Of a stretch of 64,000 nt of DNA, positions 2,208-62,120 are shown in pieces. The translations under genes were made by a program, and so were the position numbers. This DNA is from Agrobacterium arsenijevicii (lineage in GTDB: Bacteria > Pseudomonadota > Alphaproteobacteria > Rhizobiales > Rhizobiaceae). Below the pieces are notes generated by a model that had not been told where the DNA came from, did not search any database, and was given only the letters and a program-made list of their open reading frames with translations. The DNA lies in NCBI GenBank assembly GCA_000949895.1, contig JWIT01000002.1, forward strand, positions 186,001 through 250,000, written 5' to 3'. Each line of letters starts with the position of its first letter. The first letter of the stretch is position 1.

Positions 2208-3686
2208 CTAACCTTGGGTTGTGTTTTCACGCATTCGCCGCGATTTGACCATTCCGAGGATTTTTCGAAGCAGCGCGCGTTCGGTGAGCAGGATCAGCAC
2301 CGCATAGATGACGCCGCCGACCGCGGCGCCGACGAGGACCTGAAGCGTTGCACTGGGGATGCGTTCAGCAAGGATGTGCAGCAGGTAACGCACTGAAACG
2401 GCCATGACCAGTGCCGCTATCATCGGCCTGCTGCTGACATAGAGGCCGCTGAAAAACGGCGTATCGCTGGCCCTGAATACGGCCCAGGAGTATGCGATCA
2501 GCGTCACCGCATTGACGATGCAGAGCCATATCATCGCGTCGATCAGGCTACCGTAAACGGCAGCGGCCCAGACGGCGACCGTCGTGACGATGGCCCGGAT
2601 CGTCGCCGACCAGAACAGCACGCGCCCGTAACCGGCACCCTTGAGATAGGGGATGAAAGTGCTGCATGGCGTGAGAATGGCCTTCGACAGGGCCAGAAGG
2701 CCGAGAACCGGCCAGGCATAGGCCCAGTTCTGTCCGAAGATCACCAGCATGGCCGGCTCGGCCACCGCCCATAGACCGAACATCATCGGCGCAAGCAACA
2801 CCGTCAACACCTGTGTGCTGAACATCAGCGCATCACGCCGGCGTTGCGGATCGTCCATCATGCGGCTGAAGGCGGGAAACAAAACGCCCATGACGGCGGA
2901 CAGCACGACCTGATTGGGAATGCTGGCAAAGCGGTTCGAGGCGGAATAGGCGCCGGCATCGGCAAGGCCGAGATGCCGGGCTATCACCACCATCGGCGAC
3001 TGGAAGGTGACGAAATTGGCGATTTCCGACCCCATCAGGCCGGAGCTGAAGCCGAGAAGCGGCACCAGGCGGCGTGGTTTCATGACGAAGCGCGGGCAAT
3101 AGCGGGAAACGGCGTAAAGCCCGACAAGCCTGATGAGGGCAGCGGCGAAAAGCTGGATGATGAGGGCCCAGACGCCGAAGCCGAAAAGGGCCATAACCAC
3201 GGCAACCACCGCCGCGATGCTTTCGGACGCCATGCTCCACAGCGCGTCCTGGCTGAAGTTCATGCGCCGGGCAAGCAGCGAATAGGCGACATCACCCGCA
3301 AGTTGCAAAGGGATGAGAAAGGCCATGATGCGCAGCAGATAGGCGCTTTCCACCGCACCCAGAAGCCCGCCGAAAAACTCCGCGAAGAAGTAGAGAACGG
3401 CGGCCATGGTGCATGAAATCGCCAGATTTGCCCAGAAAACGGTATGGATCGTATCCATATCCTCTTCTTTTTCGACAATCAGCGCCGAGGTTAGCCCCGC
3501 TCCGGCTATCATGGTGAGGAATTGTACAACCGTTAGTCCTACCGCCACCACGCCGAATTCTTCCGGGGAAAGCAGTCGAGCGAGAATGGGGACGGTGACA
3601 AATTTAAGCCCGAATGTCCCTGTCTTAGACAGAACGCTCCAGCCGACATTCGTGGTGATGGTCTTTACATTTGGAGCTGGGGGCAT
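2208..3686 (-). CDS. exoT: ExoT, Wzx-like polysaccharide export protein
   Basis: Inner-membrane flippase-type transporter proposed to move lipid-linked succinoglycan units across the membrane. The 492-residue product has the polysaccharide_synt fold: an N-terminal KTITTNVGWSVLSKTG segment, then PILARLLSPEEFGVVA, which is the usual signature of Wzx/RfbX proteins, followed by about 12-14 hydrophobic helices. Length matches the roughly 494-residue Sinorhizobium ExoT. It is transcribed away from exoW, so the 119 bp between their starts is a shared divergent promoter region. ExoT is usually linked to low-molecular-weight succinoglycan export; that detail is family knowledge, not visible here. Confidence 0.88.
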   Translation of the reverse strand: MPPAPNVKTITTNVGWSVLSKTGTFGLKFVTVPILARLLSPEEFGVVAVGLTVVQFLTMIAGAGLTSALIVEKEEDMDTIHTVFWANLAISCTMAAVLYFFAEFFGGLLGAVESAYLLRIMAFLIPLQLAGDVAYSLLARRMNFSQDALWSMASESIAAVVAVVMALFGFGVWALIIQLFAAALIRLVGLYAVSRYCPRFVMKPRRLVPLLGFSSGLMGSEIANFVTFQSPMVVIARHLGLADAGAYSASNRFASIPNQVVLSAVMGVLFPAFSRMMDDPQRRRDALMFSTQVLTVLLAPMMFGLWAVAEPAMLVIFGQNWAYAWPVLGLLALSKAILTPCSTFIPYLKGAGYGRVLFWSATIRAIVTTVAVWAAAVYGSLIDAMIWLCIVNAVTLIAYSWAVFRASDTPFFSGLYVSSRPMIAALVMAVSVRYLLHILAERIPSATLQVLVGAAVGGVIYAVLILLTERALLRKILGMVKSRRMRENTTQG

Positions 3687-7089: not shown

Positions 7090-7368
7090 TCACATATCGG
7101 TCAGTTTTGCGCCGTGTGGCGGGGCGCTGCTTACCGTGTCCGTCGTCATGGTCTCGGCGCTGAGATCACGGGCAAAGGTTTCGCGCATCCGGCGTTTTTC
7201 CCGGGCAACGAGAACCAGAATTGCAATAAAATAACCGGTTTGCAGGATGACGGCGCAGATAAGGGTCTGGATGAAAGCTGTATAGAACGAGCCGTGAATG
7301 AAATATGTAGCAACCGCAAAAACAAGCAATGCACCGATCATGCTGAAAAAGACACGAGGTGCATACAT
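7090..7368 (-). CDS. exoX: ExoX exopolysaccharide production repressor
   Basis: Small inner-membrane protein that lowers exopolysaccharide output after translation, thought to act against the ExoY priming transferase. The 92-residue form starting MYAPRVFFSMIGALLVF at 7368 resembles ExoX/Psi proteins as I remember them: a short amphipathic start, two closely spaced hydrophobic helices (about residues 8-45) and a basic cytoplasmic tail with EKRRMR. GAGGAG precedes this ATG by 6 nt; the frame extends upstream to 7473 but without a ribosome site or family match. It is upstream of exoU on the same strand, 109 bp apart. No exoY is present in this window. Confidence 0.82.
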   Translation of the reverse strand: MYAPRVFFSMIGALLVFAVATYFIHGSFYTAFIQTLICAVILQTGYFIAILVLVAREKRRMRETFARDLSAETMTTDTVSSAPPHGAKLTDM

Positions 7369-7708
7369 GGTGCTCTCCTCCCGAGAACGACTTCTCCGTT
7401 TTTGGCTGCGCTGCGGCATTCTTTTTTCTTTGCAAGAAATATACGATGAGACCGGTGTTGTTTCAACACACATATACTTCTTCTATCTCCCACGGCATGA
7501 AATTTCGGTAATCTTGATTGGTAAATTCCTTGGTAATCGGCGTTTTGCCCGAATCGGGTTGGTCCGCACCGCGGATTTGGACAGCAGGCGCCGCCTAAAA
7601 ACCCGTCTGTGCAAGGCCTTCCCGGCCTTCTCTCTCGCTTAGCAGACTTCGTTAACCATCCAGCCTTTAAAAAGTCGGTATTGATTCCTCGAAGAGCAAG
7701 GTGCCCGC
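7369..7708. other. Intergenic region exoX / DUF6074-like gene
   Basis: A 340-bp divergent region with no credible gene. It should contain promoters for both flanking genes. GGTAATC occurs twice in direct orientation (7507-7513 and 7532-7538), 25 bp apart, with a related GGTAAAT between them. That could be a regulator site but it is too short to assign. Confidence 0.4.
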
Positions 7709-57905: not shown

Positions 57906-58655
57906 ATGAGCGGTACCATCCTCATCACCGGCGCCACGTCCGGTTTCGGACAGGCCACGGCGCGGCGCTTCATCAAGGAAGGCTGGAAGGTCATCGGCAC
58001 CGGTCGGCGGGCGGAACGGCTGGAGGCGCTGGGCCAGGAACTCGGCTCCGCCTTTCATGGCGTCGCCTTCGACATCACCGACGAGGACGCCACGCAAAAG
58101 GCGCTTACGGCCTTGCCGGAAGGCTTCCGGGACATCGATATTCTCGTCAATAATGCGGGGCTTGCGCTCGGCACCGCACCTGCGCCGCAGGTGCCGCTGA
58201 AAGACTGGCAGATCATGGTGAACACCAATATCACCGGTCTTTTGAACATCACCCACCATCTTTTGCCGACGCTGATCGACCGCAAGGGCATTGTCGTCAA
58301 CCTCTCGTCGGTGGCCGCGCACTGGCCTTATGCGGGCGGCAACGTCTATGCCGGAACGAAAGCCTTCCTGCGGCAATTCTCGCTCGGGCTGCGCTCCGAC
58401 CTGCATGGCAAGGGCGTGCGCGTCACCTCGATCGAACCCGGCATGTGCGAAACGGAATTCACGCTCGTGCGCACCGGTGGCAATCAGGACGCATCGGACA
58501 ATCTCTATAAGGGCGTCAATCCGATCACGGCCGAGGATATCGCCAATACGATCCATTGGGTCGCCTCGCAGCCCAAACACATCAACATCAACAGCCTCGA
58601 ACTCATGCCGGTCAACCAGTCCTTTGCCGGTTTTCAGGTGCATCGGGAAAGCTGA
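57906..58655 (+). CDS. sdh: Serine 3-dehydrogenase (SDR family)
   Basis: NADP-dependent SDR enzyme oxidising the 3-hydroxyl of L-serine and related hydroxy acids (also allo-threonine-type substrates). 249 residues, the same length as the characterised Agrobacterium enzyme, which it closely resembles in my memory (for example GFRDIDILVNNAGLALGTAPAPQ). TGATSGFG at 8-15, NNAG, VNLSSVAA with the Ser and VYAGTKAF with Tyr and Lys form the SDR active site. GGAG lies before the ATG. Confidence 0.92.
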   Translation: MSGTILITGATSGFGQATARRFIKEGWKVIGTGRRAERLEALGQELGSAFHGVAFDITDEDATQKALTALPEGFRDIDILVNNAGLALGTAPAPQVPLKDWQIMVNTNITGLLNITHHLLPTLIDRKGIVVNLSSVAAHWPYAGGNVYAGTKAFLRQFSLGLRSDLHGKGVRVTSIEPGMCETEFTLVRTGGNQDASDNLYKGVNPITAEDIANTIHWVASQPKHININSLELMPVNQSFAGFQVHRES

Positions 58656-59208
58656 TTTCTCAACGTTTTCTGTGGGAGTGCTAAAAAACAAAGCAGGAAT
58701 TTTCGAGCTATGCAAAAATGCAATGCTGCATTGCGAGACTTGCTCTGTTAAAAATCGAAGATACCGCTATATTCAAATCATCGAAGCGACGCACTCCTCC
58801 TCCCAGTGTCGCTCGATGTGGATCGGTGGTACTCCTCCTCCCAATCACCGATCAAGTTTGAAGCCTGCCGCACCTCCTCCCGCGGCAGGCTTTTTCCTTT
58901 TCTGGGCTTTCTTTTTCGGATGTGTTTGGCGGTCGAGTTTCGGCGAGCGTGCCACGCTCGGACGGCATCCCGTTTCTCCCTTGAATTTCCGGGGGGATTT
59001 CATATTTTCCCGTCAAGGCGCTGATTGTTGAAATCGGACACGTATCGATCACGATTTCGTTATGTCTAGATGAATATGCACAGTTTTAGGGCGGTGCGTC
59101 GTGTTGGCCCATTGCTTAGGCCCCAGCCTGTGTTTAAGCATGGGCAAAAGAACGCTTGGGAGTTGCCGACACGCTTGTGTCTGTGCGCCTGAAAGCGGCG
59201 GGGAGAGA
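58656..59208. other. Long intergenic region sdh / M24 peptidase
   Basis: A 553-bp region with no protein gene I can support. Its clear content is the small RNA at about 58779-58896. The stretch 58900-59208 carries a short palindrome (GAGCGTG/CACGCTC near 58951) and the ribosome site of the peptidase gene, otherwise nothing I can name. Confidence 0.5.
58779..58896 (+). ncRNA. Candidate trans-acting small RNA with three anti-Shine-Dalgarno loops (alpha-r14/NfeR1-like)
   Basis: Three hairpins in a row, each showing CCTCCTCCC in its loop. Hairpin 1 (58781-58815) is a bulged stem of TCGA/GCGAC arms; hairpin 2 (58821-58855) pairs GATCGGTGGT with ATCACCGATC; hairpin 3 (58861-58892) pairs AAGCCTGCCGC with GCGGCAGGCTT and runs into T5, an intrinsic terminator. 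A CTATAT -10-like box at 58767-58772 places the 5' end near 58779. The layout matches the alpha-r14 family of Rhizobiales sRNAs (such as NfeR1), which block ribosome sites on mRNAs, usually with Hfq. The exact 5' end is inferred. Confidence 0.82.
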
Positions 59209-60396
59209 ATGGCAGACTTTCAAGAGGCGCTGAAGCGGTTTCAGCCGATCGCGATTTCACCGATCGCTGAAGACGAATTGAGGTTGCGGTTGCGCGGCCT
59301 GCAAGCGCAAATGATCCAGCAAAATATCAAGGCGGTCTGGCTCGATGCATCATCGTCGCTGACCTATTATACCGGCCTGTCGCTTGGCCTTTCAGAGCGC
59401 ATTCATGGCGCGCTGGTGCCGGCCGAGGGTGAACCGGTCTATGTCAGCCCGGCATTTGAGGAACCTAAGCTTCGGACAATGATCCGTATCGAGGGTGACG
59501 TCGCCGTCTGGGAAGAGGATGAAAGTCCCTTCGACCTGATGGCAAAGCGCGTCGAAGCTCTCGGCTGTCCCGGCCATCTTCTCGCCATCGATCCCGCCAC
59601 TCCCTTTGTTTTCGCATCGGCCCTGATGCAGCGTCTGGAAGGCCGCGTGATTTCCGCCCAGCCGATGATCGTCGCCCAGCGGCAGGTCAAATCCGCAGCC
59701 GAGATCGCGATCATCCAGACGGCTATGGATGCGAGCTACGGCGTGCAGAAGGCCGTGTTCGAGGGGCTGCGTCCCGGCATTTCCACCACCGAAGTGGCTG
59801 ATTTCGTTAATGCCGCACATATTGCGCTGGGCTTGAAGCCGCTTTTCGTGGCGGTGCAGTTCGGCGAGGCGACAGCCTATCCGCATGGCGTGCCCTATGC
59901 GCAGACGCTTGATGACGGTGACATGGTTCTGGTCGATCTCGGCGGCATTCTTCACGGCTATCGTTCTGACATCACCCGCACCTATGTGTTCGGCCAGCCG
60001 ACGGAACGGCAGCGTTTTCTATGGAATGCCGAACGTGATGCGCAGGCTGCGGCCTTTGACGCGGCCCGGGTTGGTGCTGCCTGTTCGGATGTGGACAAGG
60101 CCGCGCGCGACAGCCTGAAAGCGGCCGGTTTCGGGCCGGATTATCAGGTTCCGGGCCTGCCGCATCGCACCGGCCACGGCCTTGGGCTGGATATTCACGA
60201 AGAACCCTATATCGTTGCAGGAAATGCCACGGCGCTTGAGCCGGGAATGTGCTTTTCAATAGAGCCGATGTTGTGCGTTTATGGGGAATGCGGCGTTCGC
60301 CTTGAGGATATAGCTTATATGACGGAGGCGGGACCACGCTGGTTCTGCCCGCCGGAAAAGAACCTCGACCGGCTGTTCCAGCCGGTCGCCGGGTAA
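59209..60396 (+). CDS. M24 family metallopeptidase (Xaa-Pro aminopeptidase-like)
   Basis: 395-residue creatinase/aminopeptidase-P-type enzyme. The N-terminal domain (about 1-165) precedes the pita-bread domain, whose five metal ligands can be traced: two Asp in VLVDLGGILHGYRSDITRTY, His in LPHRTGHGLGLDIHEEPY, Glu in FSIEPMLC and Glu in GVRLEDIAYMTE. GGGGAGAG precedes ATG 59209; the frame is open to 59101 without support. It is 119 bp upstream of dppA and may be co-expressed with peptide uptake. It is cytoplasmic by the absence of a signal. Confidence 0.9.
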   Translation: MADFQEALKRFQPIAISPIAEDELRLRLRGLQAQMIQQNIKAVWLDASSSLTYYTGLSLGLSERIHGALVPAEGEPVYVSPAFEEPKLRTMIRIEGDVAVWEEDESPFDLMAKRVEALGCPGHLLAIDPATPFVFASALMQRLEGRVISAQPMIVAQRQVKSAAEIAIIQTAMDASYGVQKAVFEGLRPGISTTEVADFVNAAHIALGLKPLFVAVQFGEATAYPHGVPYAQTLDDGDMVLVDLGGILHGYRSDITRTYVFGQPTERQRFLWNAERDAQAAAFDAARVGAACSDVDKAARDSLKAAGFGPDYQVPGLPHRTGHGLGLDIHEEPYIVAGNATALEPGMCFSIEPMLCVYGECGVRLEDIAYMTEAGPRWFCPPEKNLDRLFQPVAG

Positions 60397-60515: not shown

Positions 60516-62120
60516 ATGAAAACGCTGACCCGCAGTTTGCTTATAGCCTCTGCGCTTGCGATGGCTTCCGCCGTGCCCGCCATGGCGAAGACCTTCGTTT
60601 ATTGCTCCGAAGCATCGCCGGAAGGCTTCGATCCTTCGCCTTACACGGCCGGTGGCACCTTCGATGCCTCTGCGCATCCGGTCTACAACCGTCTGACCGA
60701 GTTCAAGAAGGGCACGACCGAAGTTGAGCCCGGCCTTGCCGAAAAGTGGGAAGTTTCGAGCAATGGCCTCGAATACACGTTCCACCTGCGCAAGGGCGTA
60801 AAGTGGCACTCCAATGAGAAGTTCACGCCGAGCCGCGATTTCAACGCCGATGACGTGATCTTCAGCTACAACCGCCAGGGTGATGCAAAGAACCCGTGGA
60901 ACCAGTATATCGCAGGCATCACCTACGAATATTACAACTCCATGGAAATGCCGTCGCTGATCAAGGAAATCGTCAAGGTTGACGATTACACCGTCAAGTT
61001 CGTGCTGACGCGCCCGGAAGCGCCGTTCCTTGCCAATATCGCGATGCCTTTCGCTTCGATCGTTTCGAAGGAATATGCCGATACGCTTGATAAGGCCGGC
61101 ACCAAGGAAGACTTCAACAACCTGCCGATCGGCACCGGTCCGTTCAAGTTCGTCGCCTATCAGAAGGACGCGGTTATCCGCTACCAGAAGAACGCCGACT
61201 ACTGGGGTGAAGCTCCGAAGATCGACGATCTGATCTTCGCGATCACGCCTGATGCCGCCGTTCGCCTGCAGAAGCTGAAGGCCGGCGAATGCCACCTGAT
61301 GCCTTATCCGGCTCCGGCTGATCTGGCCACCATCCGCGCCGACAAGAACCTCAAGCTCGACGAGCAGCCCGGTCTGAACGTCGCTTATTTCGCCTACAAC
61401 ACGACAGTTGCGCCTTTCGACAAGCCGGAAGTCCGCAAGGCGCTGAACATGGCGATGAACAAGCAGGCGATCATCGACGCCGTCTTCCAGGGTGCCGGCA
61501 CTGTTGCCAAGAACCCGATCCCGCCGACGATGTGGTCCTACAACGACAGCATCAAGGACGATCCTTACGATCCGGACGCTGCCAAGAAGGCTCTCGAAGC
61601 CGCTGGCGTCAAGGATCTAACGATGAAGATCTGGGCGATGCCCGTTCAGCGTCCCTACATGCCGAATGCCCGCCGTACTGCCGAGCTGATCCAGTCGGAT
61701 TTTGCGAAGGTAGGCGTCAAGGCCGAGATCGTCTCCTTCGAATGGGGTGAATACCTCAAGAAGTCGACCGAAGTGAATCGCGACGGTGCCGTCATCCTCG
61801 GCTGGACCGGCGACAACGGTGACCCGGATAACTTCATGGGCGTTCTGCTCTCCTGCGCCGCAACCGGCGAAGGCGGTGCAAACCGTGCTCAGTGGTGCAA
61901 CAAGGAGTTCTCCGAACTGCTTTCCAAGGCGAAGCAGACCACGGACGTCGCTGAGCGCACCAAGCTTTATGAGCAGGCGCAGGTAATCTTCAAGGAACAG
62001 GCTCCGTGGGCGACGCTTGCGCACTCCACGCAGTTCGTTCCGATGTCCGCCAAGGTTTCCGGCTTCACCATGAGCCCGCTCGGCGACTTCACCTTCGAAA
62101 ACGTCGACATCGCGGAATAA
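60516..62120 (+). CDS. dppA: Dipeptide ABC transporter substrate-binding protein
   Basis: Periplasmic SBP_bac_5 protein, 534 residues. Signal peptide MKTLTRSLLIASALAMASAV with cleavage after AMA (residue 24 or so). Mature start KTFVYCSEASPEGFDPSPYTAGGTFDA is typical of DppA; other blocks are AEKWEVSSNGLEYTFHLRKGVKWHSN and WTGDNGDPDNFMGVLLSC. AAGGA lies 8 nt before the ATG. A strong hairpin between dppA and dppB should raise the amount of binding protein relative to the membrane parts. Confidence 0.95.
   Translation: MKTLTRSLLIASALAMASAVPAMAKTFVYCSEASPEGFDPSPYTAGGTFDASAHPVYNRLTEFKKGTTEVEPGLAEKWEVSSNGLEYTFHLRKGVKWHSNEKFTPSRDFNADDVIFSYNRQGDAKNPWNQYIAGITYEYYNSMEMPSLIKEIVKVDDYTVKFVLTRPEAPFLANIAMPFASIVSKEYADTLDKAGTKEDFNNLPIGTGPFKFVAYQKDAVIRYQKNADYWGEAPKIDDLIFAITPDAAVRLQKLKAGECHLMPYPAPADLATIRADKNLKLDEQPGLNVAYFAYNTTVAPFDKPEVRKALNMAMNKQAIIDAVFQGAGTVAKNPIPPTMWSYNDSIKDDPYDPDAAKKALEAAGVKDLTMKIWAMPVQRPYMPNARRTAELIQSDFAKVGVKAEIVSFEWGEYLKKSTEVNRDGAVILGWTGDNGDPDNFMGVLLSCAATGEGGANRAQWCNKEFSELLSKAKQTTDVAERTKLYEQAQVIFKEQAPWATLAHSTQFVPMSAKVSGFTMSPLGDFTFENVDIAE

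Follow-up and report, generated by a model that had tools for sequence, protein, structure and literature searches.

A well-conserved additional copy of the ar14 small RNA family in Agrobacterium arsenijevicii

A real, well-conserved small regulatory RNA gene of the catalogued ar14 family is located at 58780..58897 of the window, i.e. the whole 64,000-nucleotide stretch of Agrobacterium arsenijevicii DNA that was analysed (all window features given here lie on the + strand). The genome holds three ar14 places, denoted A (contig C5, beside csp), B (the RNA in the window) and C (contig C8). Copy B is very probably a trans-acting sRNA of the NfeR1 type, one of three paralogues, with loops that most likely block the Shine-Dalgarno sites of uptake mRNAs. 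Family membership, structure, loop and stem conservation, genus-wide orthology, promoter elements as sequence and the over-representation of a target class were computed; that copy B is expressed, that it represses its targets and which activator drives it are what we infer. It is a known kind of RNA and an ordinary additional copy. An earlier sequence-only reading of this DNA had described it as an unannotated small RNA; as a kind it is not new, the family being in Rfam and two paralogues in C58 having Northern blots.

The assignment to alpha-r14 that this reading proposed was borne out by the covariance-model search, in which Rfam RF02344 (ar14) matched 58776-58897 (+) over its full length (model 1-123) at 118.4 bits, compared with a gathering threshold of 58.8. 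The window contains exactly three copies of the motif CCTCCTCCC, which begin at 58796, 58834 and 58873 and are all on the + strand, against 0.50 expected from shuffled windows, of which 0/100 reached three. Folding of 58767-58896 gave a minimum energy of -55 kcal/mol, whereas shuffled sequences averaged -27.6 (z -8.70; 0/200 shuffles equally low) and placed every copy of the motif, unpaired, in the loop of its own hairpin. As expected of an ar14 RNA, all three hairpins expose CCUCCUCCC unpaired, both in the fold and in the consensus structure. Hairpin 1 (58779..58818, motif at 58796-58804) is delineated by fold, consensus structure, pair counts and motif, and hairpin 2 (58821..58853, motif at 58834-58842) by the consensus structure, with both-sided changes in 6/10 pairs. 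Hairpin 3 (58860..58895, motif at 58873-58881) is supported by the fold, and 11/12 of its pairs are invariant among 37 orthologues; T5 follows at 58891-58895. Hairpin 3 and T5 together look like an intrinsic terminator, at which transcription of copy B would stop. The arms are unlike one another and the loop cores identical in all three hairpins. The architecture described from the letters, with three hairpins of identical loop motif, differing arms and a terminal T5, thus stands in full.

Copy B was found together with the upstream short-chain dehydrogenase gene (57906..58655, Pfam adh_short, outside the RNA) in 37/37 Agrobacterium genomes examined, a set that includes the window's own genome and leaves out the duplicate locus L032. 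In the alignment of these 37 orthologues, 30 of them distinct, all three loop motifs are invariant, and 99.7% of cells are paired under the copy-B structure, compared with 23 to 50% under slid structures. The sequence-only reading had named loss of the loop motif from conserved stems as the outcome that would count against it, and this was not seen in the 37 orthologues. Both-sided changes were observed in 8/33 pairs against a shuffled mean of 4.1 (1/500 as high) and in 47 cells against 14.0 (0/500 as high), figures that the shuffles overstate, as the orthologues are kin and related sequences may beat shuffles without structure. These compensatory changes are located in stems 1 and 2. For further standard pair types, the count of 15 does not exceed that of the shuffles (mean 15.8; 479/500 as high). 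Hairpin 3 is nearly invariant among the 37 orthologues, and stem 3 consequently provides little covariation evidence. At the level of sequence, the alignment shows that the loops and the stem pairing are kept and the stem letters are not; copy B thereby displays the variable stems and ultraconserved loops of ar14, stem 3 being uninformative. The stems would serve as scaffolds whose letters are free to change while pairing holds.

On a wider scale, each of the 37 Agrobacterium genomes contains two to seven ar14 matches at E 0.001, at least one match was found in 146/151 genomes drawn from the family (the window's genome among them), and the model found no match in 14 control genomes. To ar14 as a whole, copy B adds a clean genus-wide orthologue group. 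A record from another family (L110) contains two matches over the cut-off, at 81994-82117 and 82203-82326 (-) with 67.8 and 65.8 bits, both of them without an exact CCTCCTCCC and with shortened loops, e.g. CTCCTCCC and TTCCTCCCC. An unusually long array, with seven CCTCCTCCC in ~430 bases, is found at 2801-3233 (+) of L112, in a genome of the same order but another family. Matches to part of the RNA and promoter of the window are also present in 535 plasmid records, mostly from Rhizobium (325) and Sinorhizobium (150), and additional copies are therefore present on plasmids.

Copy C has four hairpins by count of the CCTCCTCCC motif and has its last hairpin in common with copy B (L003, L105). 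The neighbours of copies A and C are presumably ybaK, a response regulator and ftsZ. The published work consulted comprises PMC10746234, PMC3927594, PMC7143759, PMC7486931, PMC3738593, PMC4201532 and PMC7717549. In genome G006, positions 109823-110032 read exactly as csp and equal the cspA coordinates given for C58 in PMC3738593, which confirms csp as the neighbour of copy A in C58. The ar14 matches of G006 lie at C1:109473-109594 (copy A), C2:1230297-1230418 (copy B) and C2:1831482-1831606 (copy C). Copies A and C of C58 coincide with two Northern-validated transcripts in Table 4 of PMC3738593, namely C1_109477F (118 nt, Northern ~120) and C2_1831446F (162 nt, Northern ~160). Levels of C1_109477F were lower in YEP than in AB or induction medium. 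It was published as an antisense RNA to Atu0105, a gene for which no mRNA was detected (PMC3738593). The coincidence suggests that this transcript (L028, G006 C1:109477-109594) is ar14 copy A, and more likely trans-acting than antisense. By homology with the mapped copy A of C58 (118 nt, first letters ATCGAAGCG), the 5' end of copy B would be near 58780, one base off the 58779 given by the sequence-only reading.

The main text of PMC3738593 lists no transcript tag at the C58 position of copy B, and text searches of an open-licence library brought to light no paper that names copy B. The C58 transcript C2_1305779F was considered and rejected as its counterpart, copy B being located at C2:1230297 in the cspA-matching genome. 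Copy B might be nearly silent, by analogy with S. meliloti, because just one of the six ar14 copies there was reliably detected by Northern blot (PMC7143759). The loops are identical in the three copies, and in C58 validated transcripts are at hand for A and C. Together with the S. meliloti figure, these observations are compatible with a redundant, weakly expressed paralogue, kept mostly by gene conversion or drift while A and C do the work. However, the loops, the compensated stems, the TATAT and the own promoter element of copy B are kept in 37/37 genomes, unlike what decay would leave behind, and we regard redundancy of this kind as unlikely, albeit a possibility to be reckoned with.

The putative promoter of copy B can be described in three parts. 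The -10 box CTATAT is located at 58767..58772, and its TATAT is invariant in the copy-B promoters of the 37 genomes. A candidate LysR-type (LsrB/VtlR-like) activator box at 58710..58737 follows the pattern TGC-N5..8-GCAW-N1,2-CT, present in 37/37 copies B, 37/37 copies A and 26/34 other matches, the latter a mixed set that forms part of the remaining genus matches. The NfeR1 promoter carries an LsrB site (PMC10746234), to which the box was likened, and an LsrB-type box is thus found, as a sequence match, in 37/37 copies B. Transcription would start near 58780 from the CTATAT promoter with the help of this LysR-type box. The VtlR study of C58 found vrsA as the sole additional match to its VtlR consensus; vrsA is no ar14 promoter, and this counts against VtlR control of copy B.

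The third part, at 58679..58695, is a copy-B-specific element of the form TGC-N11-GCA with an A-rich centre, whose function may be NtrC-like. Its looser pattern, TGM-N2-AAAAA, is found upstream of 37/37 copies B, 0/37 copies A and 0/34 others. The strict TGC-N11-GCA, given as the form of the NtrC site, is present in the window and in 21/37 copies B in total, in 3/37 copies A and in 3/34 others, where ~1.2% per promoter is expected by chance and the genomes compared are kin; it is missing from 16/37 copy-B promoters. As a general ar14 feature it was rejected: among the 80 of 117 stretches listed, it was found between -140 and -80 in 10/81 promoter rows, two of the 10 being Agrobacterium copy B. 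The NtrC reading is weakened by the 16/37 promoters without the strict form and by its rarity outside the genus among the stretches listed. It is accordingly doubtful that the nitrogen input which acts on NfeR1 in S. meliloti sits, in Agrobacterium, on paralogue B alone. If it did, a LysR-type activator would be shared by the three RNAs and NtrC would act on B only, contradicting PMC10746234, where it is remarked, without data, that Agrobacterium shows no evident NtrC signature. As the NtrC-like element is lacking from nearly all examined copies A and C, RNAs with identical seeds would be under different signals, and this promoter difference makes the question of why a genome holds several same-seed RNAs directly testable.

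Among the closest described systems is NfeR1 (Smr14C2, SmelC397) of S. meliloti, which belongs to the same Rfam family and, as read in the S. meliloti copy presumed to be NfeR1, has three CCUCCUCCC hairpins and the same CTATAT -10 as copy B. In S. meliloti CP090106.1, two ar14 copies are arranged in tandem, flanked by trigger factor and by DUF1127 genes; another copy is found elsewhere. The DUF1127 family includes the RNA-binding protein CcaF1, and RNAs that titrate proteins likewise tend to carry the same unpaired loop several times over. Copy B could on these grounds be a sponge for an RNA-binding protein or another partner, without pairing to mRNA. This we consider barely credible, since the NfeR1 loops are reported to pair at ntrB and two transporter mRNAs; the three loops reportedly act redundantly, pairing at translation starts and thereby silencing the mRNAs (PMC10746234). 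Pairing of the loops with mRNA remains the preferred mode of action. In the second tandem copy the -10, the LysR-type box and the TGC-N11-GCA are placed as published for NfeR1, and this copy was therefore taken to be NfeR1. Like copy B, this presumed NfeR1 copy has a TGC..GCA LysR-type box ~70 nt upstream and a TGC-N11-GCA further upstream, at 27 nt from the activator box compared with 15 nt in copy B. The neighbourhoods differ, with trigger factor (tig), the tandem ar14 copies, DUF1127 genes and trmFO around NfeR1 and the short-chain dehydrogenase and M24 around copy B. Orthology by neighbourhood was rejected on this difference. In combination, the NfeR1-like elements and the other neighbourhood indicate that copy B probably acts in the manner of NfeR1 but is not its positional orthologue.

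The C58 paralogues are similar in part. C1_109477F (copy A) shares the family, the 118-nt length and the activator box, and its hairpin 1 is nearly that of copy B; it differs in the csp locus, the -10 sequence and the lack of TGM-N2-AAAAA (0/37 copies A). RS0680a of Rhodobacter sphaeroides is, we assume, an RNA of the cuckoo type. Like copy B it exposes an anti-Shine-Dalgarno loop on each hairpin, with two hairpins compared with three (PMC3927594). The four-hairpin form, represented by C2_1831446F (copy C) and by SmelA099 of S. meliloti (PMC3927594), has the loop motifs of copy B, in C2_1831446F also its last hairpin, yet is ~160 nt long and has a different promoter. AbcR1/AbcR2 also combine anti-Shine-Dalgarno motifs with transporter mRNA targets but belong to another family and are Hfq-dependent, unlike NfeR1 (PMC10746234). 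The Hfq pull-down suggested by the sequence-only reading is hence of doubtful value for copy B, NfeR1 being described as Hfq-independent in that source.

In the mechanism we favour, CCUCCUCCC on each of the three loops would pair with GGGAGGA-type Shine-Dalgarno sites and exclude the ribosome. The pattern GGGAGGA-N3..12-ATG occurs 193 times in the genome compared with 23 for the reversed pattern, and many starts could therefore pair with the loops. These seed sites are a seven-base complement to the loops; 99 distinct sites of the 193 were examined, giving 73 frames of at least 100 aa after 26 shorter ones were dropped. For the control site AAAGGARA, 70 of 74 were examined, one was not recovered, 23 shorter frames were dropped and 46 were used. 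Solute-binding proteins follow seed sites in 26/73 cases by Pfam, among the families listed (25 of 57), or in 23/73 by a stricter count, compared with 5/46 for the control, which is a full count (Fisher two-sided, p 0.0027 and 0.014, respectively). The 26 comprise SBP_bac_1 (8), Peripla_BP_4 (6), Peripla_BP_6 (5), DctP (3), SBP_bac_5 (3) and TctC (1), assumed to be disjoint, and the 23 consist of homology clusters recovering 22/25 of them (7, 5, 4, 3 and 3) plus TctC. The clustered proteins have signal-peptide-like starts, as judged by eye. This enrichment fits the predicted NfeR1 regulon, with repression as the presumed effect; a Shine-Dalgarno type that is frequent before transporter genes could, however, have nothing to do with the RNA, and GGGAGGA-type sites may also be used by AbcR1. 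The most likely targets would be mRNAs of periplasmic solute-binding proteins and of other uptake or metabolic genes, a class common to the paralogues and probably in part to AbcR1. The earlier proposal that the loops act on transporter mRNAs thus receives indirect support, from loop conservation and from the solute-binding-protein enrichment.

Among the genes of the window, those predicted to pair best are a 3-hydroxyisobutyrate dehydrogenase-like gene, a nucleotidyl transferase gene, which we take to be glgC, and a DUF3597 gene, the top value being -19.0 kcal/mol; the starts of the window genes were picked by a rough rule and the ranks are correspondingly rough. The M24 peptidase gene downstream (59209..60396, Pfam Peptidase_M24; within 3 kb in 21/37 genomes) pairs at its start with a loop at -14.0 kcal/mol, which, scored apart, would rank fourth. 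The dppA-like solute-binding protein gene (60516..62120, Pfam SBP_bac_5) starts, as the sequence-only reading had noted, 1.6 kb from the RNA and has AAAGGA as its ribosome site. Its predicted pairing, at -10.7 kcal/mol, ties for 13th-15th among 47 window genes, and that of ntrB, silenced by NfeR1 in S. meliloti, is weak and interrupted in the window's genome (-8.5 kcal/mol).

These values bear on whether copy B is a cis regulator of the M24-dpp operon, or an sRNA mainly for the adjoining dpp. The common strand, the distance to dppA and the moderate pairing at the M24 start are in line with this, and DppA protein is repressed in an Hfq-dependent manner, with atu4113 among the known targets (PMC4201532); that DppA or atu4113 of that work is the gene beside copy B is inferred from gene numbering. 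Conversely, in 16/37 genomes the RNA is present with its loops and the dehydrogenase, yet neither M24 nor DppA is matched within 3 kb; a terminator hairpin lies between the RNA and M24, and the dppA pairing is mediocre next to the best one, with starts picked by the rough rule. A dedicated role at M24-dpp is thus very improbable, and the sequence-only suggestion of dpp as a special target was rejected on neighbourhood and pairing rank. The dpp operon is probably a mere neighbour of copy B and is removed as an obvious target.

Elsewhere in the window, Rfam RF02504 (Atu_L1) matches 7239-7412 (+) over its full length at 210.9 bits, and this segment includes CUCUCCUCCC, an anti-Shine-Dalgarno-like motif.
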